Of a stretch of DNA of 27,513 nucleotides, positions 4,175-27,513 are shown piece by piece; the stretch's first letter is position 1; each line of letters begins with the position of its first letter. The translations under genes were made by a program, and so were the position numbers. A model generated the notes under the pieces. That model was not told where the DNA came from. It saw only the letters and a list, made by a program, of their open reading frames with translations, and searched no databases. Source of the stretch: a virus; IMG/VR virus record IMGVR_UViG_3300049215_000852, positions 1-27,513 of that record. One strand, written 5' to 3'.

Positions 4175-5032
4175 GTGGGCGTCGTCGTTCAGGTTACCTC
4201 AGAAGCGTCGACCGTCCTCACCGGGACGCTCACGTTCGGATCGGCGGTCGTCACGGGTCTCTCGTCGACGGCCGCGCTCGTCGTCGGTCAGTTCGTTCAG
4301 GGGACGGGCGTCCCGTCCGATACGCTCGTCTCCTCGATCGACTCGCCGACGCAAGTCACTCTCACGAGCAATGCGCAGGCGAACGGCGCAACGTCGCTCT
4401 CGTTCATGCAAGAGCCCGTCACGCTCGCCCGCGCGAAATCACAGCTCCGGGTCGATATCACCGATGATGATGTCCTCATCGCGTACAAGCTCTCGGCAGC
4501 GCGGCGCGTGTGTGAGACATACGTCAAGCGTGCGTTCCTCCCGACGGTATTTACCGCGTTCTGGGATTCGTTCCCGTTCGGCGGCGGCTATTACAACCGA
4601 ATGCTCCGGCAGTTTTACGGCGCGTTCCCAGGCGCCTCGGGCGCCACGTTCCCCGGGTTCCTGCCTACCAACACGGGCATCATTCAACTGCCGCGTGCCG
4701 ATCTCCGGTCCGTCGGGTCGATCAACTATCTCGATTCGAACGGCAATCCGCAGACGCTTGACCCGAGTAACTACGTCGTCGAGACCGGCGCGCCAGGTCG
4801 GATCGGTCCCTCGGTCGGGAAGATTTGGCCGGTGACTTATCCGGAGATCGCCGCGGTCAACGTCGTGTTCACCGCGGGTTATTCCTCAGTCCAGGCGGTT
4901 CCTTCATGCGCCGGAGAAGCGATTCTTTTGCTTCTCACGCACATGTACGAGAACCGCGGGGAGCAATCCGTCGAGATGCCGGCCGCGATCGCGGCACTGC
5001 TCTCCCCGCTCGACTGGGGCGGCTACGCGTGA
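4175..5032 (+). CDS. Head-tail connector protein (gp6 / phiE125 gp8-like) with N-terminal extension
   Basis: A 285-residue connector (adaptor) expected to form a ring under the portal. The connector domain runs from about residue 80 to 285: L-A-R-A-K-S-Q-L-R-V then D-D-D-V-L-I-A-Y-K-L-S-A-A-R, Y-V-K-R-A-F-L-P (helical core), then the strand region I-I-Q-L-P-R-A-D-L-R-S-V and a C-terminal helix with L-L-L-L-T-H-M-Y-E-N-R-G-E. Residues 1-78 are extra: a beta-rich segment of the type G-S-A-V-V-T-G-L-S-S-T-A, G-Q-F-V-Q-G-T-G-V-P, seen elsewhere in phage surface and fibre proteins. GTG start at 4175, three bases after the preceding stop. The stop overlaps the next gene's GTG. Confidence 0.85.
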   Translation: MGVVVQVTSEASTVLTGTLTFGSAVVTGLSSTAALVVGQFVQGTGVPSDTLVSSIDSPTQVTLTSNAQANGATSLSFMQEPVTLARAKSQLRVDITDDDVLIAYKLSAARRVCETYVKRAFLPTVFTAFWDSFPFGGGYYNRMLRQFYGAFPGASGATFPGFLPTNTGIIQLPRADLRSVGSINYLDSNGNPQTLDPSNYVVETGAPGRIGPSVGKIWPVTYPEIAAVNVVFTAGYSSVQAVPSCAGEAILLLLTHMYENRGEQSVEMPAAIAALLSPLDWGGYA

Positions 5033-9874: not shown

Positions 9875-10297
9875 ATGGCCGTCAAAAACCCCGGCTTGGG
9901 GACAATCCTTCAACTCTCGATCAGCTCGACTTACACCAACGTCGCGCAGCGCGTCTCGCTCGACGGGCCCGAGCTCGCGGTCGGTACCGCCAACACGACC
10001 GACCTCGACGGCACCGTGGAAACCTATCGCCCCACGCTCCCCGACTCCGGCGAGCTCAGCGGCACGCTTTACTACGATCCCCAGGACAGCACACATAGCG
10101 CGCTCTTCTCCGCGGTCACGGCCCCGTCGCAAACGCTCAACTTGTGGAAACTCAAGTTCACCGATGCCGCGGCATCGATCCTCGCGTTCTCGGGGATCCT
10201 CACCAAGTTCAAGCCCACCGGCATGACGAAGGACGGCAACCTCAGCGCTGACTTTTCCATCAAGGTCAGCGGCACGCCGGTTATGACCCACAGTTAA
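9875..10297 (+). CDS. Tail tube protein, copy 1
   Basis: The 140-residue major tail protein that polymerises in rings to form the DNA channel of a non-contractile tail. It has the short tube-protein plan: N-terminal arm with L-Q-L-S-I-S, a loop with V-S-L-D-G-P-E-L, then D-S-G-E-L-S-G-T-L-Y-Y-D-P, W-K-L-K-F-T-D, and a final strand pair with F-K-P-T-G-M and F-S-I-K-V-S-G. It starts 4 bases after the tail completion stop with GGAGCTTGAG in front. About 85% of positions match the next gene, counted by eye. It is two residues shorter in the loop after Y-Y-D-P-Q. Confidence 0.87.
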   Translation: MAVKNPGLGTILQLSISSTYTNVAQRVSLDGPELAVGTANTTDLDGTVETYRPTLPDSGELSGTLYYDPQDSTHSALFSAVTAPSQTLNLWKLKFTDAAASILAFSGILTKFKPTGMTKDGNLSADFSIKVSGTPVMTHS

Positions 10298-10342: not shown

Positions 10343-10771
10343 ATGGCCGTCAAAAACCCCGGCTTGGGGACCGTTCTACAGCTCAAGATCAGCATGACGT
10401 ACACCCCGGTGTCTCAGCGCGTCTCGCTCGACGGCCCCGAGCTCGCGGTGGGCACCGCGAACACGACCGACCTCGACGGCACCGTGGAGACCTACCGGCC
10501 CACGATCCCCGACAGCGGCGAGCTCAGCGGCACGCTCTATTACGACCCGCAAGAGGCGAGCACGACTCACTCGACGATGTTCACCGCGATCACCGCACCG
10601 TCGCAAACGTTGAACCTCTGGAAGCTCATCTTCACCGACTCGGTTGCGTCGACCCTCTCATTCTCGGGCATCCTCACGAAGTTCAAGCCCACGGGCATGA
10701 CGAAGGATGGCAACCTCAGCGCTGACTTCACTATCAAAGTCAGCGGCTCGCCGGTCATGACCCACACGTGA
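10343..10771 (+). CDS. Tail tube protein, copy 2
   Basis: A 142-residue paralogue of the preceding gene. Differences cluster in the N-terminal arm (residues 11-24, e.g. S to K and N to P) and in the loop after Y-Y-D-P-Q, where this copy has two more residues. The central block V-S-L-D-G-P-E-L to V-E-T-Y-R-P-T is identical. Both reading frames are intact and conserved to the last residues, so neither copy looks decayed. GGGAG at 10331-10335 precedes the ATG. The two may assemble into a mixed tube, or serve as major tube and tail terminator/initiator variants. This is inference, and the downstream chaperone and tape measure genes could serve either copy. Confidence 0.87.
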   Translation: MAVKNPGLGTVLQLKISMTYTPVSQRVSLDGPELAVGTANTTDLDGTVETYRPTIPDSGELSGTLYYDPQEASTTHSTMFTAITAPSQTLNLWKLIFTDSVASTLSFSGILTKFKPTGMTKDGNLSADFTIKVSGSPVMTHT

Positions 10772-11220: not shown

Positions 11221-11516
11221 CGCTCCGGCTCGGGTGCACCGTTAAAGAGCTCCTCACGCGCCTCGACTCGGCCGAGTTAACCGAGTGGATCGCGTTCGAC
11301 TCGATCGAGCATCTCCCCGACGAGTTTTGGTGCGCGGCCATGCTAGCGCAAACGATGGCCAACGCATGGTCGACCAAGGGGGGTTACAAGATCGCCGATT
11401 TCCTCCCCCACAAGGGGACCGGCGATGACTCGGACGTCCAACCGGCCGAGGTCGGACTCAGCTACGCGCACGCGTTAATGTCCATCATGAGCGCGCGAGA
11501 GAAACACGATGGCTGA
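10852..11516 (+). CDS. Tail assembly chaperone GT fusion by -1 frameshift (join 10852..11181, 11181..11516)
   Basis: A slip at the heptamer gives a predicted 221-residue fusion. The second part, read in the -1 frame from 11181 to the TGA at 11514-11516, contains L-R-L-G-C-T-V-K-E-L-L-T-R-L followed by A-E-L-T-E-W-I-A-F and, later, Y-K-I-A-D-F-L-P. That is the characteristic lambda gpT/minor tail assembly pattern. The T frame has no good start codon of its own near its beginning and would be unread without the shift. Its stop overlaps the tape measure start at 11509, so the fusion, tape measure and tail tube are in the classical order. The protein homology makes this much stronger than a slippery heptamer alone. 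Confidence 0.85.
11175..11237 (+). promoter_or_regulatory. Programmed -1 ribosomal frameshift signal
   Basis: The slippery heptamer A-AAA-AAC at 11175-11181 is in the correct frame (GAA AAA AAC) within a run of seven A. Seven bases later a perfect 7-bp stem can form between GCACCCG (11189-11195) and CGGGTGC (11231-11237), with a 35-base loop containing the 0-frame stop codon. Spacing is in the usual stimulatory range. An alternative 5-bp pairing CCGAG/CTCGG shares the 3' arm. Confidence 0.8.
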
Positions 11517-13782
11517 TATCTCGGCCGCAATCGGCGAGCTCGCCCTCACCGCGGCGAGCGCGAAGATTGCGCTTGATGCCTTCGACCACTCCGCGCGCGG
11601 CGCGAACAGCGACCTTCGCCAGCTCGACTCCTCCATCGAGCGGCTCACGTCGGCGATGCGCGACCTCCAAAGCTCGATCAACGTCGCGCACCAGGCCGGC
11701 CCGAGCTCGAGCAGCTCGAGCACCGCGAAGGAGAGCGCGGAGAACAGCCAGGCGATTGCCCAGGTCGCCGCGAGCATCTCCAACGCCGCGGGCCCGCTCC
11801 AACGCCTCGGCGCGACGATGGTCGGCATGGTGAACCAGGTCGGCGGCACCATCACCACGCTCGCGCGCCGAATTGACGCGTCGATGAAATTCGACACCTC
11901 CATCACTGCGCTCGACAAGCTCCGGGAGTCCGCCTCGAACAACTTCCGAAAGATGCTCATCGACGCGGGCAAAGCCGCACTCGCGATCCAGAACTACTTC
12001 TCCAGCTCGGGCGACGTCGCCCGCCACAGCCTGATGCAGCTCACCGGATCCAACTTCGGGCCCGCGGTCTCGTCGGCGCTGACGCTCAACCGCGCCGTGG
12101 GCGCGATCCGCCCGACCACCGTCTCCGCAACGGGCGCCGTCGTCGCGTTCGGCCGGCAGCTCTTGATTGCGCTCGGCGTGTTCGGCGTGGCGTTCAAGGT
12201 CGTTCAGTTCTTCCACACGGCCATTGGCGAAGCGAGCGCGTTCTCCGAAACGATCGACAAGGTAAACACCGTCTTTGGCGCCGCGGCCGGCACGATCCTT
12301 TCGCAGTCCGACGCGATGGCCGCGAAGTTCGGAATCGCCAAGCGCGAATTCTCGGACGCGGCGGCGTCGATCGGTGAGATGGGCCTGGCCGCGCGCATGA
12401 GCCAAAAGGATGCGGCGGCATTCGGCGTCCAATTCGCCAAGCTCGCGGCCGACTTCGCCTCCCAGGACAACTTGAGCTTCGAAGAGGCGGCGGCAAAGCT
12501 CCGCTCCGCGCTCGCCGGCGAGAGCGAACCTCTTCGACGTTACGGCGTGCTCATCGACGAGGATACGGTCAAGCTCTACGCCTACGCGTCGGGCCTCGCG
12601 AAGGCCGGCCACGAGCTCACCAACAGCCAGAAAGTGCAAGCCCGCGCGGCGCTGATCATGCAGGGCCTCTCGCGCGTGCAAGGCGACCTCGAGCGAACGT
12701 CCGGATCCGCCGCGAACCAGTTCCGCCGCGCAGGGGGCGGACTCACCAACTTCGCGCAGATCGTCGGCTCACTCCTCTTGCCCGCGGTCAAGCAAGCGCT
12801 CGCCAGCTTCAACGAGCTCCTCGCGACGACGATTGAGGTTTTTGAAAACAACAAGGGCACCTTCGCCGGTTGGGCCGGGAACATCGCCGAGGCGTTCGAT
12901 ACGGTCGCCATGGTCGCCCGCAACTTCGGCGACGTGTGGGAGATCGTCAAGCTCACCGCGATCGAGAAGCTCTCGAACGTCATGGCCTACCTGGAGTCGT
13001 TCCGCGACTCGCTCGGCATCATCGGCTCTTGGATCAAAGACAACTGGATGGAGATCCTGGCCAACGCGTTCAACGACATTGGCCAGTATTTTCTGAACCT
13101 CGGTTTCAACGCCACCAAGCTCTACGTGGCGCTCAAGGACCTCTTCGCCGGCAAGGGCTTCAACTTCGACTGGACGCCGTTGCTCACCAACTTCAAGACG
13201 GTGGCAATGGAGCTCCCCGAGTTGATGAAGCCGGCGACGGTCTCCATGGAAGAGGGGATCGATGCGGCCATGGCGCGCATCGCCGAGCGGGAGGCCAAGC
13301 TCGCGGCCCAGCTCAAGGCCAACGCCGAGAAGTCGGCGGGCGGCGCCGGCTCCGGTGCGGCCGCGGCATCCGAGCGATTGCTCGAGCTCTCCAAAAAGGT
13401 CAAAGAGTACATCGACGATGCAAAAACACCCCTGGATAAGTTCCAGGAGAAGATTAAGGACCTTCAGGAAATGCGCGCGGCCAAGCTGATCGACGATGCG
13501 ACGTTCAACAAGGTCGCCGGCGGCGCGGCGCAGGAATTCGCTCGCGACTCCAACGAAGGCCGGAAACCCTACGCCGGCGCCCTCACCGCCAACTCCCGCG
13601 AGGCCCGGAGCGCGATCCTCGAGCATCGCATGGCCGGCGATCGCGACCCGGTGAAACAGGTCGAAAAAGCGATCCGCGAACAGACCGCGATTCAGAAAGA
13701 GCAGCTCGTCGGAATCAAGCGGCTCAGCGACATCCTCGGAAGCAAAGAGAAAACTGAGAAAGAGCTCGGCCTCCCCCTCTAA
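11509..13782 (+). CDS. Tail tape measure protein
   Basis: A 757-residue protein that sets tail length and is extruded during DNA ejection. The N-terminal 130 residues are helical with a Ser/Ala-rich linker. A hydrophobic segment lies at about 210-235 (L-L-I-A-L-G-V-F-G-V-A-F). Residues about 285-425 carry the tape-measure core (A-A-S-I-G-E-M-G-L, S-F-E-E-A-A-A-K-L-R-S-A-L-A-G-E, Q-F-R-R-A-G-G-G-L). The rest is coiled-coil-like and charged. With the rule of about 0.15 nm per residue, the tail would be near 110 nm, short to medium for a siphovirus. The ATG at 11509 overlaps the chaperone T stop, and the stop overlaps the next gene's ATG. Confidence 0.92.
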   Translation: MADISAAIGELALTAASAKIALDAFDHSARGANSDLRQLDSSIERLTSAMRDLQSSINVAHQAGPSSSSSSTAKESAENSQAIAQVAASISNAAGPLQRLGATMVGMVNQVGGTITTLARRIDASMKFDTSITALDKLRESASNNFRKMLIDAGKAALAIQNYFSSSGDVARHSLMQLTGSNFGPAVSSALTLNRAVGAIRPTTVSATGAVVAFGRQLLIALGVFGVAFKVVQFFHTAIGEASAFSETIDKVNTVFGAAAGTILSQSDAMAAKFGIAKREFSDAAASIGEMGLAARMSQKDAAAFGVQFAKLAADFASQDNLSFEEAAAKLRSALAGESEPLRRYGVLIDEDTVKLYAYASGLAKAGHELTNSQKVQARAALIMQGLSRVQGDLERTSGSAANQFRRAGGGLTNFAQIVGSLLLPAVKQALASFNELLATTIEVFENNKGTFAGWAGNIAEAFDTVAMVARNFGDVWEIVKLTAIEKLSNVMAYLESFRDSLGIIGSWIKDNWMEILANAFNDIGQYFLNLGFNATKLYVALKDLFAGKGFNFDWTPLLTNFKTVAMELPELMKPATVSMEEGIDAAMARIAEREAKLAAQLKANAEKSAGGAGSGAAAASERLLELSKKVKEYIDDAKTPLDKFQEKIKDLQEMRAAKLIDDATFNKVAGGAAQEFARDSNEGRKPYAGALTANSREARSAILEHRMAGDRDPVKQVEKAIREQTAIQKEQLVGIKRLSDILGSKEKTEKELGLPL

Positions 13783-14681
13783 TGCCCATCACCGTCATCC
13801 CGCAAAAGAACGGCTCGCGCTACTCAGTACGGCGAGACTGGACGCGCACGTACAAGCGCACGTGGAAGTGCGTTGTCACCGACGCGTTCGGCAATGCGAG
13901 CGGCAAGGATATCCCGCAGACGATCGCCAATAGCCTCCCCGTCGGCCTCGGCGATTTCTACACCAATAGCGACGATAGCGAGTTCGATGGCGGGAGTTTC
14001 TGTTGCCAGATCGACGTCGATCCGGAGGGAGCTACGGACGGCGCCTCGTGGATCGCGGTCGCGACCTATGAGCCATACGACCCGGTTCAATTCCCGGAAA
14101 ACCCACTCCTGACCCCGCTCGAGATCGAAGGCGGCTTCAATCCCTACGAAACCATCATCGACCGCGACCAGACCGGGGCCGCGGTCGTCAACAGTACCGG
14201 CGATCCCTTCGACCCCCCGCTAACCTCCGAGGATCCGCGGCCAAGCCTCACCATCGTGCGCAATGAGGCCACGATCGATTGGGGCTTGCTCTACATGTAC
14301 CGCAACGCGGTCAATAGCGACTTCTTTTGGGGCGCGCCCCCAACGTATGTGAAGGTCTCTCGCATCGCCCCCAAGCGCATGTGGAACCAATACCTTGCCA
14401 ACTTCGGAATCACCCCGGGCGGCTTCTATTGGAGCGTCACGTACGAATTCCAGTTCAACCCGCAAGGCTGGCATGCGTTCGTTCTCGATCAGGGCATGCG
14501 CAAGCTCGTGATGGGCAAGCCGCAACAAATCGCCTTCAACGGGATCCCGATCACCAGCCCGGCCTTGCTCGACGGCGCGGGCGGAGTACTCCCCGCCTCG
14601 GGCACGCCCGTGTTCAAAGAGTTCATCATCTATCCCGAGCTCGCGTTCGAAATCTTCAACCTCAACAACCCGGGCCCATGA
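13782..14681 (+). CDS. Tail tip module protein, unknown
   Basis: A 299-residue protein whose ATG overlaps the tape measure stop. Position directly after the tape measure is where distal tail (Dit-like) or tail hub proteins are encoded, but I do not recognise the sequence as one. It is rich in aromatic residues and Pro (R-D-W-T-R-T-Y-K-R-T-W-K-C near the start, V-T-Y-E-F-Q-F-N-P-Q-G-W-H-A-F near residue 220), with a strand-rich C-terminal half ending in L-A-F-E-I-F-N-L-N. No membrane segment. Cysteines C31, C73 and C74 are visible in the N-terminal third. A structural tail tip or baseplate role is inferred from position and composition. Confidence 0.75.
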   Translation: MPITVIPQKNGSRYSVRRDWTRTYKRTWKCVVTDAFGNASGKDIPQTIANSLPVGLGDFYTNSDDSEFDGGSFCCQIDVDPEGATDGASWIAVATYEPYDPVQFPENPLLTPLEIEGGFNPYETIIDRDQTGAAVVNSTGDPFDPPLTSEDPRPSLTIVRNEATIDWGLLYMYRNAVNSDFFWGAPPTYVKVSRIAPKRMWNQYLANFGITPGGFYWSVTYEFQFNPQGWHAFVLDQGMRKLVMGKPQQIAFNGIPITSPALLDGAGGVLPASGTPVFKEFIIYPELAFEIFNLNNPGP

Positions 14682-15151
14682 TCCTCGCCCTCCTCTTCGT
14701 CGCCCTCGCCGTCCTCGGCTCGCCCCGATCGCCGGATCACCTCTTCGCGCTCGTCTCCGGCCTGGCCGCTCTCGCATCCCTCGGCGCAGCAATGGCCGGC
14801 TTCTCGCGCGGCGATGCCAACCGCATCGGCCGGAGCGTGCGCGACAGCGAGCACCGCAACAAGGGATGGTCGCCCGTCCGCCGCGGCCGTTTCCCCGCGG
14901 GCGGGATCCTCGTGTTCCCGGTCAAGCTCACTGAGGACCTCGACGCACTCTCGGGCACCACGCCCGGAACCGCCGAGGCGAACCCAGCGACGTACGATGA
15001 CGACACCAACACGTACGACGTCGACACGTCGACCACGGTCAACGTCAACTCGAATTACTCGTCGAGCGTCGACAGCGGCACGATGATTTGGGTCGTTGTG
15101 TGGGGCGGCGGCAATCCCTGGCTCCTCACCGACGATTGCCCGAGCTCATGA
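14678..15151 (+). CDS. Small tail-module protein with hydrophobic N-terminus
   Basis: A 157-residue protein if translation begins at the ATG overlapping the previous stop (ATGA at 14678). This form has two hydrophobic stretches in the first 42 residues (M-I-L-A-L-L-F-V-A-L-A-V-L and L-F-A-L-V-S-G-L-A-A-L-A-S-L). A start at ATG 14792 gives a soluble 119-residue form beginning M-A-G-F-S-R-G-D-A-N-R-I, which looks more like short proteins I associate with planctomycete prophages. The overlap favours the long form. The C-terminal half is Thr/Asp/Ser-rich with a final I-W-V-V-V-W-G-G-G strand. It could be a membrane-active or virion protein. It is the only holin-like candidate in the structural module, and that is weak. 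Confidence 0.65.
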   Translation: MILALLFVALAVLGSPRSPDHLFALVSGLAALASLGAAMAGFSRGDANRIGRSVRDSEHRNKGWSPVRRGRFPAGGILVFPVKLTEDLDALSGTTPGTAEANPATYDDDTNTYDVDTSTTVNVNSNYSSSVDSGTMIWVVVWGGGNPWLLTDDCPSS

Positions 15152-15858
15152 GAAAAAGCCCGGGCTGCAAATGTTGCTGCAAATGCGCCGTCACGCTCAC
15201 GATCGAGGGTTGCTACGCCAAGCCGTGCACCGGCGTTGCTTATACGATTTACGACCCCCGCGGCAACGTCGTCACGTCCGGCACGACGTCGAGCTCCGGC
15301 GAAGTGACGTTCACCGCGCGGAGGCCCGGCGCCTACAAGATCACCGCCTCCAAGTCGCGCTACGTCACGCTCACGAGCTTGACGTTTCTTACCCTCACCG
15401 CGCCATGCCCGTCGACGTCGATCCCGGTCGTCACTCTGACACCCGCGTCAGGCTACGCGTGCTCGCTCTGTTGCCCGGATCCGCTCAGCACGACGTTGCA
15501 CCTCACCGATTCGCTCGTCGGCGACGTCACGCTCACGTATGACGCCGTCGCCGGCTACTGGTCGGGCTCCGCCGTCTACGCGTTCCCGGGCCGGGATGTC
15601 CCGTTCCCATGCCCGCCCGCCGACGTGACGGTGTCCTACTCGTTTTCTAACCTCGGGACCGGTTGCGGCGTCGTGGCGTCCTTCCCGACGTCGGCCCCGT
15701 TCAACTGCCCCGACGACGTCGGCACGGGCGATATGGGCGTCTGCCGCATCTGGACGATTCTGGACCTCGGCGCCACGTTGACATGCTCGCCGTTCAGTTT
15801 CAGCGACACGGACGGAAACAACTGCTTCGGCGGCGCCACGATGACCCTGACCGAATGA
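15148..15858 (+). CDS. Cysteine-rich beta-domain phage protein
   Basis: A 236-residue protein starting at the ATG overlapping the previous stop. An upstream in-frame start at 15088 lies in the preceding gene and is rejected. It has 17 cysteines, seven in the first 26 residues, including a C-K-C-C-C-K-C cluster. Residues about 14-75 look like a carboxypeptidase-regulatory/Ig-like domain (V-T-L-T-I-E-G-C, Y-T-I-Y-D-P-R-G-N-V-V-T-S-G-T, G-E-V-T-F-T, P-G-A-Y-K-I-T-A-S-K). The rest is a second beta-rich region with paired cysteines (C-S-L-C-C, F-P-C-P-P). A tail tip adhesin or metal/disulphide-stabilised surface protein is plausible. No enzymatic motif. It ends 4 bases before the next start. Confidence 0.75.
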   Translation: MRKSPGCKCCCKCAVTLTIEGCYAKPCTGVAYTIYDPRGNVVTSGTTSSSGEVTFTARRPGAYKITASKSRYVTLTSLTFLTLTAPCPSTSIPVVTLTPASGYACSLCCPDPLSTTLHLTDSLVGDVTLTYDAVAGYWSGSAVYAFPGRDVPFPCPPADVTVSYSFSNLGTGCGVVASFPTSAPFNCPDDVGTGDMGVCRIWTILDLGATLTCSPFSFSDTDGNNCFGGATMTLTE

Positions 15859-17174: not shown

Positions 17175-17633
17175 ATGGAGACGAACGACGTGAAGGCCCG
17201 CACGGGTCGCCGTGCGGCCGGCCGAGACTTCGTCGAGGTTTTCGCCGGGCTCGAGGAATATGTGCGACAGGAGAAGTCGCGGCGACGGGCGGGCGGCAAC
17301 GACCTCGGCCAGCAAACGGAGCGGACGGCCAAGCAAACCCTGATGCTCACCGTGCGCGAGCGTCAACTCCTGGACGTCCACGCTCTCGGCTTCGGAGTCG
17401 ACCCCGCCCAACTTGTCGGTCACCTCCTGACCGCGTGTTGCAAGCGGTTTGTACTCCAGGACCGGGGGGGGAACGGCCCTGGAGTTGAATCGGCAAACGG
17501 GGAAAGCGTGGTTAACCTTTCCGGTGAAAATATCCCGATCCCGGAAACTATTCCGGCCCCGGAATCGATCACCGAGGCTCCCGCCCCAGAGCAGGGGAGG
17601 GGTCAATCGGGCCGGCGCGCGAAAGTCGCGTGA
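17175..17633 (+). CDS. Hypothetical protein in the lysogeny cluster, possible DNA-binding
   Basis: A 152-residue protein with GAGGT about 7 bases before the ATG. The N-terminal 50 residues are basic (R-R-A-A-G-R, K-S-R-R-R-A-G-G). Residues about 54-95 contain Q-T-L-M-L-T-V-R-E-R-Q-L-L followed by two predicted helices (P-A-Q-L-V-G-H-L-L-T-A-C-C-K-R), reminiscent of a strand-helix-helix (ribbon-helix-helix-like) fold, but this is not certain. The C-terminal 55 residues are Pro/Glu/Gly-rich and probably disordered. It is divergent from the zinc-motif gene and convergent with the integrase, overlapping that gene's end by 31 bases. Position suggests a phage regulator. Confidence 0.65.
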   Translation: METNDVKARTGRRAAGRDFVEVFAGLEEYVRQEKSRRRAGGNDLGQQTERTAKQTLMLTVRERQLLDVHALGFGVDPAQLVGHLLTACCKRFVLQDRGGNGPGVESANGESVVNLSGENIPIPETIPAPESITEAPAPEQGRGQSGRRAKVA

Positions 17634-18508
17634 GCCAGCTCCCGCGCCAGCAGCAACGGATCCGGGTGAAGGTACCGCTCCGTGGTCGTGATCGACCCAT
17701 GCCCGAGCGACGCGGACACGACCCAGAGCGGTACTCTCCACTCCGTGAGCGCGATCGTCGCGAACGAATGACGCAGCCCATGCCAGGTCACCCTTCCCAA
17801 CCCCGCCTCCGCGGCCGCGGCCTGTAGCTGTGTGAGCGGCCGTGAGCGATGGTCGCAATTGAGCCACGGCCCTTGCCGTCTGACTCCCGGAAACATCCAT
17901 TTGCAGCCCGTCTCGCGGAGCCACGGCTCGAGCATCTCGAGCAGCTCGTGGGGCACCGCGATCACGCGCGTACTTTTGGCCGTCTTCAACGGCCGTTCCC
18001 GCGGCACGATCCTTAGCAGCCTCGCGCCCGCGTCGAGGTCCTCGAGCCGGAGGCAAAGCGCCTCGGTGCGTCGTACTCCGGTATGCGCGATCACGGCCGT
18101 GAGCGCGTGGAGCCGTCTCCCCTTCCAGTCGCGGGCCCTCTCCCTCAGCGACTCGAGGAGCCGCGAGACCTCGTCCCACGTGAGCACGGGATTGCGGCTC
18201 ATCGGCACCGGCTTGGGCGCGATCCGTTTGAGCGACGGCATGCGCTCGAGGTATCCCTCGTCGACCGCATAGCGGCAGATCGTGCGAACGTAGTCGAGAT
18301 ACCCTCGCTTGCTGTTCGCATTGCAGCTCAGCGAATCGAGGTACCTCCGAACCTCGCGCGTGGTGAGATCGGCCGTCGAGGTCGGCTTGCAAGCCTCCTC
18401 GAATTCCCGAAGCACTTGGCGGAATTTGAGATACGAGGCGTTGGATTCCTTCCGCTCGTACAGGCGCAAAAGACCATCCCTGAACGCTTCGAAAGCAATA
18501 GCGTTCAT
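17603..18508 (-). CDS. Tyrosine recombinase/integrase of the left prophage
   Basis: A 301-residue site-specific recombinase. The N-terminal SAM-like core-binding domain covers about 1-100. The catalytic domain shows R146 (H-T-G-V-R-R-T-E), K175 (P-L-K-T-A-K-S), H243 and R246 (W-H-G-L-R-H-S-F), H270 (S-L-G-H-G-S-I) and the nucleophile Y279 (T-E-R-Y-L-H-P). All six positions are intact and length is complete, so it looks active. It starts 155 bases from the tRNA fragment and reads away from it. GGGAG lies 9 bases upstream of the ATG. The short form lacks an arm-binding domain of lambda type. It probably integrates the left prophage at the tRNA gene. Confidence 0.93.
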   Translation of the reverse strand: MNAIAFEAFRDGLLRLYERKESNASYLKFRQVLREFEEACKPTSTADLTTREVRRYLDSLSCNANSKRGYLDYVRTICRYAVDEGYLERMPSLKRIAPKPVPMSRNPVLTWDEVSRLLESLRERARDWKGRRLHALTAVIAHTGVRRTEALCLRLEDLDAGARLLRIVPRERPLKTAKSTRVIAVPHELLEMLEPWLRETGCKWMFPGVRRQGPWLNCDHRSRPLTQLQAAAAEAGLGRVTWHGLRHSFATIALTEWRVPLWVVSASLGHGSITTTERYLHPDPLLLARELAHATFARRPD

Positions 18509-18556
18509 GTGTACCCACTCCCGGATATGTGGATATGGCCTTGGGGAGGCGACATA

Positions 18557-18584
18557 AGGTTACCCTCTGGCCACATTGTGTCAA
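18557..18584 (-). promoter_or_regulatory. Candidate promoter for the minus-strand integrase
   Basis: Read on the minus strand, a perfect TTGACA (18584-18579) is followed after 16 bases by TAACCT (18562-18557), a poor match to TATAAT. The integrase ATG is about 49 bases further. A slightly more distant TTATGT is an alternative -10. Prediction from consensus only. Confidence 0.35.
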
Positions 18585-18662
18585 ATCTGTAAAGTACCGT
18601 AATATGCGCAAACATAAAGAGTTACGGGGTCTGTTCCATGTAATCATCCCATGGACATAGTT

Positions 18663-18704
18663 TTCGCAATGCTGAGGTTGAGGGTTCGATCCCCTTCCGC
18701 TCCA
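18663..18704 (+). other. tRNA-Ala(CGC) 3' fragment, attachment core (attL/attR)
   Basis: The fragment reads as anticodon loop TTCGCAA (18663-18669, anticodon CGC), 3' anticodon stem TGCTG, variable AGGTT, T-stem GAGGG, T-loop TTCGATC, T-stem CCCTT, acceptor CCGCTCC (18697-18703) and discriminator A at 18704. T at position 70 fits the G3-U70 alanine identity pair. The upstream bases do not complete the anticodon stem, and no GGGGCGG-like 5' acceptor is present, so this is only the 3' part. Two integrases flank it. This is the usual signature of integration into a tRNA gene with the core copied to the element boundary. Confidence 0.85.
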
Positions 18705-18813
18705 CTGGACCTAACTTGCGACAGGCATAGTAGTTAGCGTGCTGCCACCACGGTGGCCACGAGGGCACGGCGACTCCGAGAACCCGGTAGACTACCGGAT
18801 TGGAGTGCATTCC

Positions 18814-20022
18814 GTGTCCGCGCGTACACCGTCATATCGCCTGCACAAACCGTCGGGGTTGGCCGTCGTCACGTTGAACGGCGTCGACATCTATCTCGGC
18901 CGGCACGGCACCGAAGAGAGCCGGGCGGAATACGACCGCCGCATCGCCGAATGGCTGCTCAATGGGCGACAGTCTCGCCCCGCATCGCAGGCCGCGAGCG
19001 ACCTGGCGGTGAATGAACTGGTTGTCGCCTACCGAAAGTGGGCGGACCAGTATTACCGGACGCCGAGCGGACGACCGACGATCGAGCCAAAGAACATCCG
19101 GCTCGCGACCCGTCCCTTGCTCGACTTGTACGGACACTCGCTCGCCGCGTCGTTCGGTCCGCTGGCGTTGAAGTGCTGCCGCCAACGAATGATCGATGGC
19201 GACGTGTGCCGCTTGGAGGTCAACCGCAGGGTCGGGCGGATCGTCCGCATGTTCAGATGGGCGGTCGAGAACGAACTGGTCGCCCCGAGCGTGCTTCAAG
19301 GCTTGAGGGCGATCCAGCCATTGCACGCGGGGCGCAGCGCGGCGCGAGAAAGCGAGCCCGTCCGCCCCGTGCCCGATTGGGTCGTCGACGCGACGCTCCC
19401 GTTCCTGGCCCGCCAAGTCGCGGCGATGGTTGGGCTGCAAAAGCTGACCGGCATGCGGCCGGGCGAAGTGGTCGCGATGCGGATGTGTGACCTGGACATG
19501 AGCGGCCGGACGTGGGTCTACGCACCGCCGACGCACAAGACCCAGCACCTTGGAAAGCAACGCCATATTTTCATCGGTCCGAAGGCGCAAGCGGTCCTCC
19601 GGCCCTGGCTGCGAACCGACCTGACTGCGCCGCTGTTCAGCCCCGCCGAAGCGATGGCCGAGCGATGGGAGCGGCAACGGGCGACCCGCAAAACCAAGGT
19701 CCAACCGTCGCAACGGTCGCGGAAACGGCCCCGTCCCGAGAAGACGCCTGGCGAGTGCTACACGACCACGAGCTACCGGCGGGCGATCGCGGAAGGGGTC
19801 CGCAAGGCGAGCCGAGCGGCGAAGCGCGAGAGCCCGGACGCGCCCGACGTACCGGGGTGGCACCCCCACCAGTTAAGGCATAACGCAGCAACGTATTTGC
19901 GCCGCGAGTTCGGGATCGAGGTCGCGCGAACCGTGCTCGGTCACTCAGGTTTGGACGCGACACAGATTTATGCGGAAGCCGACTTGGAGAAGGCCCGAGC
20001 GGCGATGGATCGAGTTGGTTAG
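18814..20022 (+). CDS. Tyrosine recombinase/integrase of the right element (planctomycete type)
   Basis: A 402-residue integrase from the GTG at 18814, chosen because GGAG lies 8 bases upstream and the first residues then read P-S-Y-R-L-H-K-P-S-G, the typical opening of this group. A GTG at 18739 would add 25 unlikely residues. Catalytic residues in this numbering are R215 (L-T-G-M-R-P-G-E), K242, H352 and R355 (P-H-Q-L-R-H-N), H377 (V-L-G-H-S-G-L) and Y386 (Q-I-Y-A-E-A-D). Residues about 278-345 are a basic insertion (R-K-T-K-V-Q-P-S-Q) that I associate with planctomycete integrases. All catalytic positions are intact. It reads away from the tRNA core, divergent to the other integrase. Confidence 0.93.
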   Translation: MSARTPSYRLHKPSGLAVVTLNGVDIYLGRHGTEESRAEYDRRIAEWLLNGRQSRPASQAASDLAVNELVVAYRKWADQYYRTPSGRPTIEPKNIRLATRPLLDLYGHSLAASFGPLALKCCRQRMIDGDVCRLEVNRRVGRIVRMFRWAVENELVAPSVLQGLRAIQPLHAGRSAARESEPVRPVPDWVVDATLPFLARQVAAMVGLQKLTGMRPGEVVAMRMCDLDMSGRTWVYAPPTHKTQHLGKQRHIFIGPKAQAVLRPWLRTDLTAPLFSPAEAMAERWERQRATRKTKVQPSQRSRKRPRPEKTPGECYTTTSYRRAIAEGVRKASRAAKRESPDAPDVPGWHPHQLRHNAATYLRREFGIEVARTVLGHSGLDATQIYAEADLEKARAAMDRVG

Positions 20023-20135: not shown

Positions 20136-21074
20136 ATGCATGTCCGCGCGACGGACCCCGCCCGCCCCGAGAACACGCCCGACGTATCGGTTGACGGCCC
20201 AACCGAGGATGATCTCTTCGCCCGGCTGGCCAAGCTCGCCCCGCAGTTGGCGAAGCCCGTCTCGGCGTTGCCGGATCTACCGCGCCCCGAAGCGCCGCAA
20301 GCGAGCGAGCCGAGCGCACCGGAGCGTGAGCTTGCGCAACTGCTCAATGGCTCGTTCGAGGTGCTCGACCTGACCGCGAGAGTCGTGGACCGAGCGCGTA
20401 GCCCGTGGGGCGTCTCGCTCCCGCCGCGCCCCGCACTCCCACCGTGCGCCGGGCTCGAACACGAGTGGTCGCCGACGATCGGTTGGTGCTACGAGCTAAT
20501 GCGCTTGGCCGATGGGCGGTGGTTTGTCGGCGTGCGCCATCGTGGCCAGCGCGGCTTTCAGAAGCCTGAGCTGATCGACTGGCAGCACACCCGCCCGGCC
20601 AAGTTTTGGCAGGTCACGCCGAAGGGCGCAATTGAGTTCTGCGCCGAATTCGGGATCATGCCCCCGGACGACCTGCTTGCCCTATTCGCGGGACCCGAGC
20701 GACCCGCCGAGCAATCGGCGGAAGCCGCTCACACGAACGGCAAGCCAGCGAGCCCGCCCGCCGCGAGCATAATCTCCCCCCGATGGGACCGAGAGCGGCG
20801 AACGCTTACGTTCGACGGGCGAGAGCACAAGCTGTTCGCTCGCGAAGCGCCTACGCAGTTCATGCTGCTAGACGCGTTCGAGGTGCAAGGCTGGCCGCGG
20901 TCGGTCCCGAACCCGTACCCTTCGGACGATGAAGGCGACCGGTTGGCACAAACACGCCGGGACCTGAACGCCGCGTTGTCGGCTGCCGGCTGCCCCATTC
21001 GCGTCGGGCGGGACAATCAACAAGCGACGTGGCGCAAGTCGCAAGTCCCCGATCCTCCCGCGACTTGCGACTAA
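20136..21074 (+). CDS. Winged-helix-like putative regulator
   Basis: A 312-residue protein with AGAGGGAA about 7 bases before the ATG. Residues 1-90 are acidic and Pro/Ala-rich. Residues about 108-185 form a compact aromatic domain (E-H-E-W-S-P-T-I-G-W-C-Y-E-L, G-R-W-F-V-G-V-R-H-R-G). Residues about 215-300 follow a pattern common in planctomycete proteins: P-R-W-D-R-E-R-R-T-L-T-F-D-G, then A-P-T-Q-F-M-L-L-D-A-F, G-W-P-R-S-V-P-N-P, then A-Q-T-R-R-D-L-N-A-A-L and a final strand pair, which looks like a winged helix. Placed between integrase and replication genes, it may control the element's switch. An 11-bp inverted repeat overlaps its stop codon. Confidence 0.7.
   Translation: MHVRATDPARPENTPDVSVDGPTEDDLFARLAKLAPQLAKPVSALPDLPRPEAPQASEPSAPERELAQLLNGSFEVLDLTARVVDRARSPWGVSLPPRPALPPCAGLEHEWSPTIGWCYELMRLADGRWFVGVRHRGQRGFQKPELIDWQHTRPAKFWQVTPKGAIEFCAEFGIMPPDDLLALFAGPERPAEQSAEAAHTNGKPASPPAASIISPRWDRERRTLTFDGREHKLFAREAPTQFMLLDAFEVQGWPRSVPNPYPSDDEGDRLAQTRRDLNAALSAAGCPIRVGRDNQQATWRKSQVPDPPATCD
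21037..21072. repeat. 11-bp perfect inverted repeat at the end of the winged-helix gene
   Basis: AGTCGCAAGTC (21037-21047) pairs perfectly with GACTTGCGACT (21062-21072), with a 14-base spacer, overlapping the last codons. The left arm also contains a short direct repeat CGCAAGT. No U-tract follows, so a protein binding site or mRNA end structure is as likely as a terminator. Confidence 0.6.
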
Positions 21075-21110: not shown

Positions 21111-21197
21111 TTCGACGCATTCCGCCCGCGTTGAGTAGGACCGATCCATCGCATTCGAGTGCCGCGCAGTGCGGCGAGCAACGCGATGGGAGGTCCC

Positions 21198-21518
21198 GTG
21201 ATCACGATCGCAGACGAGCGCGTCTTCCCGTTGGGCGACATGCCCGACCACGTTCCGCACGGACGGGGCGGAAAGCGGCGACACCCGTCGACTGGTTTCC
21301 GCTGGGCAAAACACGGTCACCGCGGCATCCGCCTAGAAACGATCCGGATTGGCGGAACATTATGTACATCCGTTGAAGCGTTGCAGCGGTTCTTTGAGCG
21401 GCTGAGCGCGACCGACGGCCCGGCCCCGGCATCGTCCACCCCCGCCCGTCGTTCGCCCGCCTGCCGGGCGAAAGACATCGCGACAGCCGACGCCGAACTG
21501 AAAAAGCTGGGGGTGTGA
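21198..21518 (+). CDS. DUF1580-like small protein, possible excisionase/regulator
   Basis: A 106-residue protein. The GTG at 21198 is preferred because GGGAGG lies 4 bases upstream. The ATG at 21186 would place that site inside the gene. Residues 1-70 follow the DUF1580 plan known from planctomycetes: V-F-P-L-G-D (helix), R-G-G-K-R-R-H-P-S-T, F-R-W-A-K-H-G-H-R-G-I-R-L-E-T, then G-G-T-L-C-T-S-V-E-A-L-Q-R-F. This has the shape of a MerR/excisionase-like helix-turn-helix. The C-terminal tail is Pro/Ala-rich. It ends 4 bases before the primase gene. A role like AlpA/Xis in switching excision or replication is inferred. Confidence 0.8.
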   Translation: MITIADERVFPLGDMPDHVPHGRGGKRRHPSTGFRWAKHGHRGIRLETIRIGGTLCTSVEALQRFFERLSATDGPAPASSTPARRSPACRAKDIATADAELKKLGV

Positions 21519-21521
21519 CGC

Positions 21522-24089
21522 ATGACCGCGTGCAACGGCCGGCCGTTCCCACCTGTGCCGCCGCCCGCCACGGATGACGCACTGGCGACAGCGAGCTGGG
21601 CGTTGGCTTGCGGCTTGTGGCCGGTCCCAATCACCCCGATCGATGACTCCACGGCGAACAGCCCGGGCAAGCAGCCGATCGGCAAGGCGTGGGGTGCGGA
21701 GCGGCCGAGCGAATCGTCGCTCACGACGACGTTCCGTCGGAATCCGGGCGCTGGAGTGGGCCTGGTGCTTGGCGCGGCTGGGCTGGTCATCGACCTGGAC
21801 GTGGACGACCCGGCGGAAGCCGAAGCGACGCTCGCCCGACTGTTCCCCGGCGGCATCCCCGCGACGATGGGATGGCAGGCGAATAAGGGCGGCCACATGT
21901 TGTTTCGCTATGACCCGCGTCTGGCTGGGTTGGGCGCGATCGTCAAGGGAGTCCGGGACGGCGCGACCGGCAAGGTGGGCGGCAACCCGTGGTATCTCGG
22001 GATCGAACTGCGTCTGGGCGCGGAGCCGGGCGAGTCCAAACAGCTACAGAGCGTGGCCCCGCCTAGCCTGAAGGCCGATGGTTCGCCCCGCGCGTGGAAC
22101 GGTTCCGCCGAGATCATGCCGTTGCCCGAGTCGGTATTCGCCGATTTGGAGAAACACGGGCGCGAGCGGGTGAAGCCGCCAGCGCGCACGGGGACCGCCA
22201 GCACGCGCCATCAGCGACCCACGAGCGTTGGCGCCACAAGCTATGCCCGCGCGGCACTCAATCGCGAGGTGGAAGCCGTCGCGGCCGCGCCCAATGGATC
22301 GCGCAATGGGACGTTGAACAGTGCCGCGTTCTCGCTCGGGCAACTGGTCGGAGCGAACGCCCTGGACCTGGGCGACGTCGAGAGCGCCCTGACCGACGCG
22401 GCTCGCTCGGCGGGCCTGACCGACGCCGAGACCGCAGCGACGCTCGCGAGCGGGCTGTCCGCTGGTTTGGCGTCGCCGCGCGACCTGGCAGGGATCGGAG
22501 CGCGATCGAGGAACGGGCACGCGCCCCACGATGGGCACGCCCGGAATGGGCCGACGGAAAGTAACGGAGCGGACAGCGAGCGCCCGGAGATCGTCGTCAG
22601 TGAAGCCGCCAACGATCCGCATCGGCTCGCCCGGCTCTTTCTCGCTGCCCAGTGCAGCCACCCCGATGGGCTCACGCTGCGGTCTTGGCGGGGCGAGTGG
22701 GTCGAGTGGCAAGGGTCTTACCGACCCGTTCCGGCCGGGGACCTGCGCGCACGGCTCGCGGCGGTCGTCAAGGCCGAGTTCGACCGGCTCAATGTGAGCG
22801 AGACCGCGATCTGGGAGCGCGCGGGGGACGACAAGCTGAAACCGCGTCCGACGGCTTACAAGGTGACGCGGAGCCTGATCGCCGACACACTCCAGGCGCT
22901 GGCGAGCATCACGCTCGTTCCGAGCGCGACCGATCAACCCGTCTGGCTGGACGGCGAATCGCGATTCCCCACCGCCGAGGTCCTCGTGGCACCGAACGCG
23001 ATCATCCACCTGCCGACGTGGGTCGAGCGGCGCCCCGAAGCGGCGATCATGCCGCCGACGCCCCGCTTCTTTGCCCCGAGCATGCTGGATTATGAGTTCG
23101 ACCTGAACGCGCTGGAACCAACCGAGTGGTTGCGGTTTCTCGGTGCCCGCCCGATCACTTCGGCAAGCAGGGTGCGCTATCAGCTATGGTCCGATCCTGA
23201 AGACGTCGATTGCATCAACACGTTGCAGGAGTTCTTCGGCTATTGCTTATTGCCCGACACCCGGCAACAGAAGATTCTCGGGCTTTTCGGTCCGAAGCGG
23301 TCCGGAAAAGGGACGGTCGCGCGCGTGCTGGCCGCGCTCGTAGGGCAAGCGAACGTCGCGAACCCGACGCTGTCGAGTCTCGGGACGAATTTCGGGCTGG
23401 CACCGCTGCTCGCCAAACTGGTCGCGATCATTACGGACGCTCGCTTGAGCGGTCGGAGCGACGTCGCCCAAGTAGTCGAGTCCCTGCTCTCGATAAGCGG
23501 CGAAGACAGCAGGACGGTCGACCGGAAGCACCTGCCGCCGATCACGGTCAAGCTGCCGGTCCGGTTCGTCGTCATCGCGAACGAACTGCCCCGCATCGCC
23601 GACGCTTCGGGCGCCCTGGCGGGGCGCATGCTCATCCTGCCGATGAGCCGAAGCTTCTTCGGTCAGGAGGACCCCACTCTCACCGACGTTTTCTTGACCG
23701 AACTGCCAGGGGTTTTGTTGTGGGCGATCGAGGGATGGCGTCGACTCCGTGAGCGCGGTTACTTCGTCCAACCCAAGGCCGGTAAGTCGCTGGTTGAGAC
23801 GTTCGAGGAGATGTCGAGCCCCATCGGTAGCTTTGTCGCCGAGTGCTGCAAGGTCGAGCCCGACGCTTCGGTGCTCGTGGACGACCTGTTCCGTTCCTGG
23901 AAAACGTGGTGCGAGCGCCGGAACCGCAAGGACGCGGGCGACATCGCTCTGTTCGGGCGGAACCTGCGATCCGTGCTGCCGGCCCTGCAAACCAAGTCGG
24001 TGCGCGGCCGTGACGGCTGGGCGCGGGAGTTCCGGGGCATCCGGGAGCGAGAGCCGGGCGAGACCCCCGACGGGGTGGCGAGCCAATGA
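21522..24089 (+). CDS. Primase-polymerase / SF3 helicase replication protein
   Basis: An 855-residue replication initiator. The N-terminal archaeo-eukaryotic prim-pol domain (about 20-205) includes K-Q-P-I-G-K-A-W, the metal-binding pair in V-I-D-L-D-V-D-D (D91, D93), N-K-G-G-H-M-L-F with H125, and an S-V-A-P-P-S motif. Residues about 210-560 form a linker and D5_N-like region. The C-terminal superfamily 3 helicase has Walker A G-P-K-R-S-G-K-G-T (590-598), A-I-I-T-D-A-R-L as Walker B-like, and R-F-V-V-I-A-N-E-L-P-R followed by L-A-G-R-M-L-I-L-P (sensor and arginine finger region). This is the P4-alpha/phage-plasmid primase architecture. It should start and drive replication at the adjacent iteron origin. 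Confidence 0.93.
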   Translation: MTACNGRPFPPVPPPATDDALATASWALACGLWPVPITPIDDSTANSPGKQPIGKAWGAERPSESSLTTTFRRNPGAGVGLVLGAAGLVIDLDVDDPAEAEATLARLFPGGIPATMGWQANKGGHMLFRYDPRLAGLGAIVKGVRDGATGKVGGNPWYLGIELRLGAEPGESKQLQSVAPPSLKADGSPRAWNGSAEIMPLPESVFADLEKHGRERVKPPARTGTASTRHQRPTSVGATSYARAALNREVEAVAAAPNGSRNGTLNSAAFSLGQLVGANALDLGDVESALTDAARSAGLTDAETAATLASGLSAGLASPRDLAGIGARSRNGHAPHDGHARNGPTESNGADSERPEIVVSEAANDPHRLARLFLAAQCSHPDGLTLRSWRGEWVEWQGSYRPVPAGDLRARLAAVVKAEFDRLNVSETAIWERAGDDKLKPRPTAYKVTRSLIADTLQALASITLVPSATDQPVWLDGESRFPTAEVLVAPNAIIHLPTWVERRPEAAIMPPTPRFFAPSMLDYEFDLNALEPTEWLRFLGARPITSASRVRYQLWSDPEDVDCINTLQEFFGYCLLPDTRQQKILGLFGPKRSGKGTVARVLAALVGQANVANPTLSSLGTNFGLAPLLAKLVAIITDARLSGRSDVAQVVESLLSISGEDSRTVDRKHLPPITVKLPVRFVVIANELPRIADASGALAGRMLILPMSRSFFGQEDPTLTDVFLTELPGVLLWAIEGWRRLRERGYFVQPKAGKSLVETFEEMSSPIGSFVAECCKVEPDASVLVDDLFRSWKTWCERRNRKDAGDIALFGRNLRSVLPALQTKSVRGRDGWAREFRGIREREPGETPDGVASQ

Positions 24090-24092
24090 TCG

Positions 24093-24466
24093 TGTGGCGC
24101 GACGTGGCGCGGTGTGGCGCGATGGAATCAGCCTCCCGCCACGACGCAAGTCGTTACCGCTGACCAGCAAAAGACGCCTGTGGCGCGGTGTGGCGCGATG
24201 TTTCTTACTTATTGCATGAAGCAGGAAACAAGAAAGTAGTGAACAAAAAGAATGAGCGCAAATCGTATGGACTGCAAAGAGGTGGGATCGCGCCACACGC
24301 GCCACAACAGCGCTCCGCAATGGGGGCCGCGATGGCTGGCCGAAGCGAGCCGGGTGCCTGTTTTTCAGGCTCAAACACCACACGAGCCCGTGGGCGACTC
24401 GCCCGTGGCGGGGTCGGCCGACATCGCGCCACACATCGCGCCACAACTGGGCGACATCGCGCCACA
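24093..24466. repeat. Iteron arrays in opposite orientation around an AT-rich island, candidate origin of replication
   Basis: The unit is TGTGGCGCGATG. Direct copies: 24093-24102, 24104-24112, 24113-24124 (perfect), 24179-24188 and 24189-24200 (perfect), often 10 bp apart. Inverted copies (CATCGCGCCACA): 24286-24297 (11 of 12), 24298-24306 (partial), 24422-24433, 24434-24445 and 24455-24466 (all perfect). Between the two arrays, at about 24199-24280, is an unusually A/T-rich stretch with short A- and T-runs. The primase-helicase gene ends just before it. Iterons flanking an AT-rich unwinding element next to the initiator gene is classical origin layout. Part of the right array is coding (D-I-A-P-H-I-A-P-Q). 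Confidence 0.78.
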
Positions 24467-25770: not shown

Positions 25771-26022
25771 ATGGACCCGCACGACGCAGTGTTCAACATC
25801 GTGGTTTGCCGCTGTGTGCCTGCCGTCTTGCGCGCGATCGATGAGCACGACGCGGACGATCGCGCGGACATGCTCTTGCGAGCGTCGCGGTTGATGTTCG
25901 ACGCCGGTTCGTACCTGCTCGGACTGGCCCGGGACCCGCTCGACGACCTGGTGGCCGACGACGCTCCCAATCGCCACCGCCGCCAATTGGGAAAGCGACC
26001 CCGCCGGCCAAAAACGAGGTGA
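25771..26022 (+). CDS. Small hypothetical protein upstream of terS
   Basis: An 83-residue protein with GAGGGAG before the ATG. The first 55 residues are helical (V-P-A-V-L-R-A-I-D-E-H-D-A-D-D-R, M-L-L-R-A-S-R-L-M-F-D-A-G), and the last 15 are strongly basic (R-H-R-R-Q-L-G-K-R-P-R-R-P-K), suggesting nucleic acid contact. It touches the next gene. An accessory packaging or regulatory factor is possible by position only. Confidence 0.65.
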   Translation: MDPHDAVFNIVVCRCVPAVLRAIDEHDADDRADMLLRASRLMFDAGSYLLGLARDPLDDLVADDAPNRHRRQLGKRPRRPKTR

Positions 26023-26024
26023 TC

Positions 26025-26552
26025 GTGGACCCAGAGCTGACGCTCAAGGAACGGCGGTTCGTGGAGTGCTACCTTGGCGAGGCGAGGGGCTGCGCGAGCC
26101 TCGCCGCGAGAATGGCGGGTTACAAGAACGACCACCCCACTGGGTCGCGCCTGCTACGAAAACCTACAGTTCGCGCGGCGATCGCGAGCGAGTTGGACGA
26201 CGCCGCGATGAGCGCCAAAGAGTGCTTGGCGAGGCTCTCCGACGTCGCGCGTGGCGACCTGACTGACTTCCTCGACCTTAGCGGTGATGGGCCGCCCGTG
26301 GTCGACATCAGGAAGGCCCGAAAGCGAGGCCGGTCCCATCTGCTGAAACGGCTAGCCGTAGGCAAGGACGGAGTGCGGCTCGAGCTTCACGACCCTCTCG
26401 CCGCGCTCGCCCTACTTGCACGATTTCATAGGTTGACCGTCGACGCGAGAGAGGAGCCCGTCGATATGGGCAAGGCTCTTGAGCGAGCCCACGAGATCGT
26501 GGCCCGCCGCCGAGCCGAGCGGAACGAATCTCCAACCCACGAACCAAGGTGA
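26025..26552 (+). CDS. Terminase small subunit
   Basis: A 175-residue DNA-recognition subunit of a packaging terminase. The GTG at 26025 has GAGG 5 bases in front. A GTG at 26019 that overlaps the previous stop adds two residues. Residues 1-45 carry the family's helix-turn-helix: L-T-L-K-E-R-R-F-V-E-C-Y-L, A-A-R-M-A-G-Y, S-R-L-L-R-K-P-T-V-R-A-A-I. After it come A-K-E-C-L-A-R-L-S-D-V-A-R-G-D-L-T-D-F, typical of this group, and a C-terminal V-R-L-E-L-H-D-P-L-A-A-L-A-L-L-A-R-F-H segment. No large subunit is seen within the window. In satellites of the PICI type such a protein redirects helper packaging. In a prophage it would precede terL. Confidence 0.88.
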   Translation: MDPELTLKERRFVECYLGEARGCASLAARMAGYKNDHPTGSRLLRKPTVRAAIASELDDAAMSAKECLARLSDVARGDLTDFLDLSGDGPPVVDIRKARKRGRSHLLKRLAVGKDGVRLELHDPLAALALLARFHRLTVDAREEPVDMGKALERAHEIVARRRAERNESPTHEPR

Positions 26553-26745: not shown

Positions 26746-27513
26746 ATGTCCACTGTCACGGCCAACGACGCGGTTGCGGGGCTGCTCGACGTTCTCGCCC
26801 GCGGGCCGGTGCTCGTGCGCGTCGACGCGTTGGCCGGGCTGCTCGACGTGGCCGAGTTTGACGTCGAGCAGATCGTGGCTGAGGCGGTCGAGCGCGGCGT
26901 GGCCGAACTGTGGTCAGAAGCCCCGCCCGGACCGTGCGTGGTGCTCTCGACCAACGAAGCGAACGGGCGCAACCTCGTGATCGTCTCGCCCGCCGACGAC
27001 CCGGCCGCGGGGCGATGGCGCCGGGCCGATGAGTGGGTCCGCGAGCCGCGAGGACGACGCGAGCGAAGGCGGAAGCACAAGGAAACCCCCACCGAAGGGT
27101 TGGACGAGGTCGTCGACCCGCGCGCCCCCGGGCATCTCGAACTGCTCGAACTGCTCGAACTGGCTGAGACTGCGCGACTCGCCGCGCAGGATCGGGGCCG
27201 CCGCGCGTCGCGGGAACGCACGCTCGATGCGCTGGCCAAATCCGTGCTGACGCTGATCGGCTTGCGGCACGCGTGGTCAGCCCGCCCAAGGAAGCCGGGC
27301 GAGCCCTGTCCCGGCTGCGGTGGGCGACCGCTCGCGGTCTGGGAAGTCTGCCTGGACCTGTGGTGCGGCCGCGCCGGGTTCGACCATTTGCTCGGGCCGC
27401 TGCCGCGCGTACGGACCGCGTTGCCGACCCCGGACGGGCTGGCCGGCGGGAAGGGGCGGGCGAGCGGCAAGGCGAAGAGTAACGGCAAGGCGAGCCGACA
27501 CACGCCCCGCTGA
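26746..27513 (+). CDS. Hypothetical protein with helical repeats and a C-terminal cysteine motif
   Basis: A 255-residue protein ending exactly at the window edge. Residues 1-60 are helical with a repeated L-L-D-V (A-G-L-L-D-V-L-A, A-G-L-L-D-V-A-E), which may be a winged-helix-like start. Residues about 98-115 are very basic. Residues 127-137 repeat H-L-E-L-L-E-L-L-E-L-A. Residues about 182-208 carry C-P-G-C-G-G-R-P-L followed by C-L-D-L-W-C-G, consistent with a zinc ribbon. The C-terminal 25 residues are Gly/Lys/Ser-rich. It follows terS in the operon. A packaging-module or regulatory role is possible. I do not recognise the family. Confidence 0.6.
   Translation: MSTVTANDAVAGLLDVLARGPVLVRVDALAGLLDVAEFDVEQIVAEAVERGVAELWSEAPPGPCVVLSTNEANGRNLVIVSPADDPAAGRWRRADEWVREPRGRRERRRKHKETPTEGLDEVVDPRAPGHLELLELLELAETARLAAQDRGRRASRERTLDALAKSVLTLIGLRHAWSARPRKPGEPCPGCGGRPLAVWEVCLDLWCGRAGFDHLLGPLPRVRTALPTPDGLAGGKGRASGKAKSNGKASRHTPR

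Follow-up and report, generated by a model that had tools for sequence, protein, structure and literature searches.

How does the 3' half of a tRNA gene come to lie, without its 5' half, between two integrase genes in the genome of a virus? The contig that raises this question is the IMG/VR record IMGVR_UViG_3300049215_000852, a virus contig of 27513 bases, all of which were analysed (hereafter, the window). A sequence-only reading had proposed that two elements are integrated in tandem at a tRNA-Ala(CGC) gene, with the complete gene to the left of the window, beyond a prophage, and a further copy of the core to the right of the second element. We think it very probable that the locus does consist of two mobile elements that share the 3' end of a single planctomycete tRNA-Ala(CGC) and follow one another head to tail; the proposal is supported, short of proof, by the placement of the integrases, by mapped relatives and by a change of composition. 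The junction is made up as follows.

17603 to 18508, minus strand: int1, tyrosine integrase at the attR end of the left prophage (PF00589, PHROG 1), reading away from the core
18663 to 18704, plus strand: att core, common to both elements and their meeting point; matches the last 42 nt of tRNA-Ala(CGC) exactly, the 5' half of the tRNA being absent
18705 to 18813, plus strand: left end of the right element, with CCTAAC...GTTAG and CCGGTAGACTACCGG motifs
18814 to 20022, plus strand: int2, tyrosine integrase of the right element (PF00589), reading away from the core

The fragment had been described as a tRNA 3' part with U70 present and no 5' half, and this description holds. It lies inside 18509-18813, spans the anticodon loop to the discriminator, and agrees in all of its 42 nt with the 3' terminus of complete tRNA-Ala(CGC) genes, as a fragment displaced to the junction of a tandem integration should; U70 is read from the sequence (the 3' acceptor strand is CCGCTCC, and the complete genes start with GGGGCGG). 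ARAGORN finds no tRNA in the window, an Rfam scan of 16-21 kb gave nothing above the gathering score, and the DNA that precedes the fragment is no continuation of the tRNA. An exact 40-nt query of the genome_contigs collection returned 13 stretches, whose record titles are planctomycete except for one labelled 'bacterium'; 11 are complete tRNA-Ala(CGC) genes and both of the others are fragments without a 5' half, like that of the window. A 25-nt query of IMG/VR gave nine stretches, one complete tRNA and eight fragments. Among 45 genomes from the order to which Tautonia sociabilis (G003) belongs, taken to be Isosphaerales, the core is found in 34 (with at most 3 mismatches) and the reversed pattern in none, so that the matches are not due to chance. 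More than one copy is present in nine of the 34 core-bearing genomes, which makes tRNA-Ala(CGC) a busy integration site in Planctomycetota. At one locus (L049), where the core occupies 10463-10504 on the minus strand, the DNA about 30-60 nt to its 3' side looks by eye like the 3' end of a second tRNA.

The two flanking integrases had been called intact and divergent, and on this point too we agree: both match PF00589 (E-values 4e-21 and 6e-14), both keep the R, HxxR, LGH and Y motifs, and they read away from the fragment on either side. The int2 reading frame opens at 18739, and the GTG at 18814 agrees with the start in its relatives. The two enzymes share only 28% identity over 68 aa and are nearly unrelated. 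Relatives of int1, 33-40% identical, hold the same position beside tRNA-Ala fragments. In all, int1 relatives were found at seven loci (G002, G007, G008, G009, G011, G411, G423), where they are 5' of the fragment and read away from it. Int2 is 59-61% identical to integrases that adjoin an intact tRNA-Ala(CGC) in Paludisphaera soli and in genome G431, and a complete tRNA (many isoacceptors are represented) stands immediately upstream, on the same strand, in 17 of the 20 int2 relatives fetched; int2 is a member of a planctomycete integrase family seated just downstream of a tRNA. Each half of the window has in this way its own integrase, with motifs intact and placed as in single elements, and it is because each sits where its own family sits, at the end of its own element, that the tandem reading gains support. 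A search of IMG/VR by peptide patterns confirmed no relative of int1 or int2, and INPHARED held no match to int2; int1 matched 34 INPHARED records, all below 60% identity (25-31% among the matches listed). A search of 392 genomes of the phylum with int1 at E<=1e-20 returned none, the int1-carrying genomes having been found via the core sequence and the portal, not via this search.

To what kind of element does int1 belong? The left half (1-18.7 kb) has portal, protease, major head, adaptor and tail genes in order, together with an integrase, as is expected of a tailed temperate phage, TerL itself being off the window.

7 to 534, plus strand: g7, a small gene that lies between TerL and portal in relatives; homologues 38-45% identical in G438, G411 (two contigs) and G423
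541 to 1890, plus strand: portal protein (PHROG 12, E 3e-103; PF04860)
1862 to 2476, plus strand: head maturation protease (PHROG 80)
2511 to 3839, plus strand: major head protein (PHROG 617)
4175 to 5032, plus strand: head-tail adaptor (PHROG 442)
9875 to 10297, plus strand: major tail protein, copy 1 (PHROG 158)
10343 to 10771, plus strand: major tail protein, copy 2 (PHROG 158), adjacent to copy 1, with 83-85% DNA identity
10768 to 11220, plus strand: tail assembly chaperone (PHROG 344)
11509 to 13782, plus strand: probable tape measure protein (PHROG 28918, of unknown function; the name comes from its position and its relatives)
13782 to 14681, plus strand: conserved gene after the tape measure, with homologues at the same place in relatives
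15088 to 15858, plus strand: conserved tail-distal gene before int1, with homologues in G411, G423, G430 and G432

A tape measure homologue is present in 9 of the 11 regions compared. The complete prophage of G438 (about 34 kb, at tRNA-Asp, ending int1-attR) has 11 genes that match genes of the window with their order kept, and the same layout, with int1 on the opposite strand beside attR, recurs in G411:C227 at tRNA-Ala(CGC), in G440 at tRNA-Thr and in G432 at tRNA-Arg. These int1-type prophages (G438:C4, G411:C227, G440:C1, G432:C117) are like the left half in running from TerL and g7 through portal and tape measure to an int1 on the opposite strand and attR, g7 being recognised among the four in G438 and G411 only; the window differs from them in holding the right 18.7 kb only, without attL, early genes and TerL. 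The distance from g7 to attR is 18.3 kb in G438, compared with 18.7 kb in the window. TerL lies directly ahead of g7 in G438, G411 and G423, and from this adjacency and the distances from g7 to the tRNA in G438 and G411, about 16 kb more of prophage is to be expected on the left. We infer that the left element is siphovirus-like. Among its tail genes there is an ORF of 1187 aa (5787-9350) with no PHROG match and no homologue in the relatives examined, perhaps a variable fibre.

The right half is of another kind, and it resembles a satellite-like island more than another full prophage.

20136 to 21074, plus strand: g20136, of unknown function, between int2 and the DUF1580 gene; a 36% identical homologue (93 aa) at the same place in G431
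21159 to 21518, plus strand: DUF1580 protein (PF07618, E 2e-13); homologues after int2 in P. soli c115, G431 and G440
21522 to 24089, plus strand: primase-polymerase/helicase-like replication protein (PF09250, PF19263, PHROG 1156)
26019 to 26552, plus strand: terminase small subunit, TerS (PF03592, PHROG 51); homologues in the P. soli c115 and G431 islands
26746 to 27513, plus strand: g26746, of unknown function, its stop codon being the last base of the record

Just to the right of the core, 105 nt of non-coding flank align to the left ends of int2 islands with scores of 43-49 (17 for shuffled sequence; reached by 0 of 1000 shuffles). One of these islands is complete, that of G431, with 13.7 kb (G431:C1 5963117-5976767, L172/L173) and a 42/42 core at its far end. 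Its order is tRNA-Ala(CGC), int2 (61%), g20136, DUF1580, DNA polymerase A, TerS, DUF5681, type IIG R-M, attR; two TerS-like genes lie on opposite strands, and the gene near attR looks, from its sequence, like a type IIG restriction-modification enzyme. When ten ORFs or ORF parts of this island were compared with PHROGs, they gave DNA polymerase, TerS (at two places) and unknowns, and no head or tail protein. In P. soli c115 the order tRNA, int2, DUF1580, PolA, TerS is found at the same tRNA-Ala(CGC) (NZ_JAALJI010000024.1 from 56312). The window is like both islands in its succession of tRNA 3' end, int2, DUF1580, replication gene and TerS and in the conserved left-end flank, and shares g20136 with that of G431; it differs in having a primase-polymerase where the islands have DNA polymerase A and in that no DUF5681 gene was seen after TerS, the right end of the element being outside the window. 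The next core follows TerS after 4.0 kb in the G431 island and after 8.1 kb in that of P. soli, and these distances would place the next core about 3-7 kb beyond the window. For g26746 there was no family match and no relative in the 392 genomes. Just past the primase gene, at 24094-24200 and 24416-24466, lie GTGGCGCGATGT-like repeat units in both orientations, which are possible origin iterons.

As the Islander paper describes it, a tRNA-targeting tyrosine integrase recombines the element's copy of the tRNA 3' end with the gene, leaving one complete tRNA and a fragment at the far end (PMC4383910); two such integrations in series give exactly the junction seen. The left element would be a tailed prophage with int1 at its attR end and the right one a satellite-like island that opens with int2, followed by the DUF1580 protein, the primase-helicase and TerS, and the 42-nt fragment would be a hybrid att, bordered 5' by the prophage's right end and 3' by the island's left end. 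Recombination within the tRNA 3' end that they share would have brought in each element, rebuilding or displacing that end, and each integrase would excise its own element between the cores that flank it. To judge from the relatives, the intact tRNA is to be expected some 16 kb leftward of the window and a third core some 3-7 kb rightward of it, on the sides where the sequence-only reading would have them.

Could the window instead be a single phage? It would be a temperate phage, circular or circularly permuted and about 29-30 kb long; its only attP would have a tyrosine integrase on either side, and the contig would have been opened in or near TerL. We consider this improbable, even if several observations speak for it. 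The window begins just past the place where TerL is expected and ends after TerS, as would a circle cut at TerL; the order int2, primase, TerS, [TerL], g7, portal, tail is a normal order of phage modules, and no module is repeated between the left and right halves. In addition, a primase of the right type precedes head genes of the left type within one phage in both G406 and G427, the P. soli c57 prophage combines an integrase of int2 type with the head-tail genes of the left half, and int1-type phages can contain a second tyrosine-recombinase-like gene. ORFs of this last sort (187-423 aa) are present in the early region of G411:C227 (35157), G423:C182 (33115) and G432:C117 (27485), where they lie mid-genome, away from att and not beside attL. 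The placement of integrases in 12 elements with both att ends mapped goes against a single phage, the integrase being at attL in seven, at attR in four, at neither end in one (G429) and at both in none; in G431, which is part of this set, integrases were checked by tblastn with int1 and int2 only. (The tRNA-Leu of G406 was dropped from the mapped elements, having only three shared 14-mers.) The order int2, g20136, DUF1580, TerS is moreover that of a complete island without a recognised head or tail gene.

Composition tells against the single phage as well, changing abruptly at the fragment. The tetranucleotide correlation of the right half with two parts of the left half is 0.18 and 0.03, whereas these two parts correlate with each other at 0.60; the 33 within-prophage pairs that served as control, from seven complete prophages, have a minimum of 0.37 and a mean of 0.68, so that the right half is outside their range. 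A Markov model trained outside 15-21.5 kb puts the change point at 18917-18941, within about 250 nt of the fragment. The Markov contrast (0.044 and 0.032) exceeds most, not all, of the 33 controls (maximum 0.071), and it is G429, with this value of 0.071, that keeps it inside the control range. Finally, the record ends exactly at the stop codon of g26746, as do none of 18 other complete virus records, which suggests that it was trimmed before non-viral sequence on the right, and not before TerL. Comparison of the flanks does not count for either reading: the 5' flank of the window does not resemble the right ends of int2 islands (three comparisons), nor does the calibrator P. soli c57, of similar divergence; with the right end of the G002 int1-type prophage it has a weak similarity (2 of 500 shuffles; five ends tested).

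An assembly artefact, in which the attR of a prophage and the left end of an island from different cells were joined through the 42-nt core of a chimeric metagenome contig, is a slimmer prospect still: the two halves do differ in composition, and in G408 and G416 contigs break off at cores or close to them, so that the repeat does trouble assemblers, but usual read and final k-mer lengths exceed 42 nt, which makes a join without spanning reads unlikely, the other assemblies have breaks at the core rather than joins, and true stacking is present in P. soli.

We return to the two elements in tandem, which have counterparts in known systems. Tandem tRNA islands are a recognised category: in the Islander account, 3919 islands include 125 tandems of two or more (PMC4383910). 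As these are described there, the window is like them in having a displaced tRNA 3' fragment between the elements, each with its own properly placed integrase; it differs in that the one core is flanked by integrases of different families (int1 marking a right end, int2 a left end), that the host is a planctomycete, and that the outer ends are outside the window. The right element also recalls the PICIs, as portrayed in PMC6092414, in its left-end integrase, replication module and terS, and in a size of about 12-15 kb; PICIs have no structural or lytic genes; the right element is cut off by the end of the window, and in its complete relative, G431, no structural genes were recognised among the ORFs compared. 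PICIs are also induced by and packaged with a helper phage, and have an integrase, a replication module and a regulator in conserved order; int2, DUF1580 and primase are present here, the DUF1580 protein being at most a candidate for the regulator. PICIs are, however, characterised in that paper by an att site never used by prophages, and here int1-type prophages share tRNA-Ala(CGC). For this reason (prophages at this site are found in G002, G411 and G423) we do not call the right element a PICI.

A different proposal, which we make tentatively and hold to be rather doubtful, is that the right element and its relatives are phage satellites of Planctomycetota, with a small terminase of their own, with a restriction system in one case, and sharing their tRNA att with prophages of the kind that adjoins the right element here, possibly their helper. 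If so, satellite and phage would, through the shared site, depend on each other in excision and transfer, and the right element would point the way to phage satellites in this phylum. No description of satellites of Planctomycetota was found in open-licence PMC papers, and DUF1580 is mentioned in none of these; a satellite-like island that carries a terminase and shares its att with prophages in Planctomycetota is, we think, a mildly new aspect.

Both kinds of element are known at this tRNA from other genomes, left-type prophage in G411 and right-type islands in G431 and P. soli. In G002, G411 and G423 the prophages seated at the tRNA-Ala(CGC) 3' end are of the int1 type and have head-tail genes; no recognised integrase is found within 3 kb downstream of the full tRNA in these three, the full tRNA of G002 and G423 being on another contig than the prophage. 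The stack of P. soli (L043-L044, 56238-80142) has cores at 56270, 73022 and 80101: the first fragment is 16.7 kb from the tRNA, and beyond it comes the left end of a further int2 element, in which the integrase gene is interrupted past its start. The stacking of elements at tRNA genes, long known elsewhere, thus occurs also in Planctomycetota, a little-studied phylum. The contigs of G408 (four core copies) and G416 (three) that end at or near tRNA-Ala(CGC) cores (L209-L215) suggest further multi-element stacks that short reads failed to resolve.
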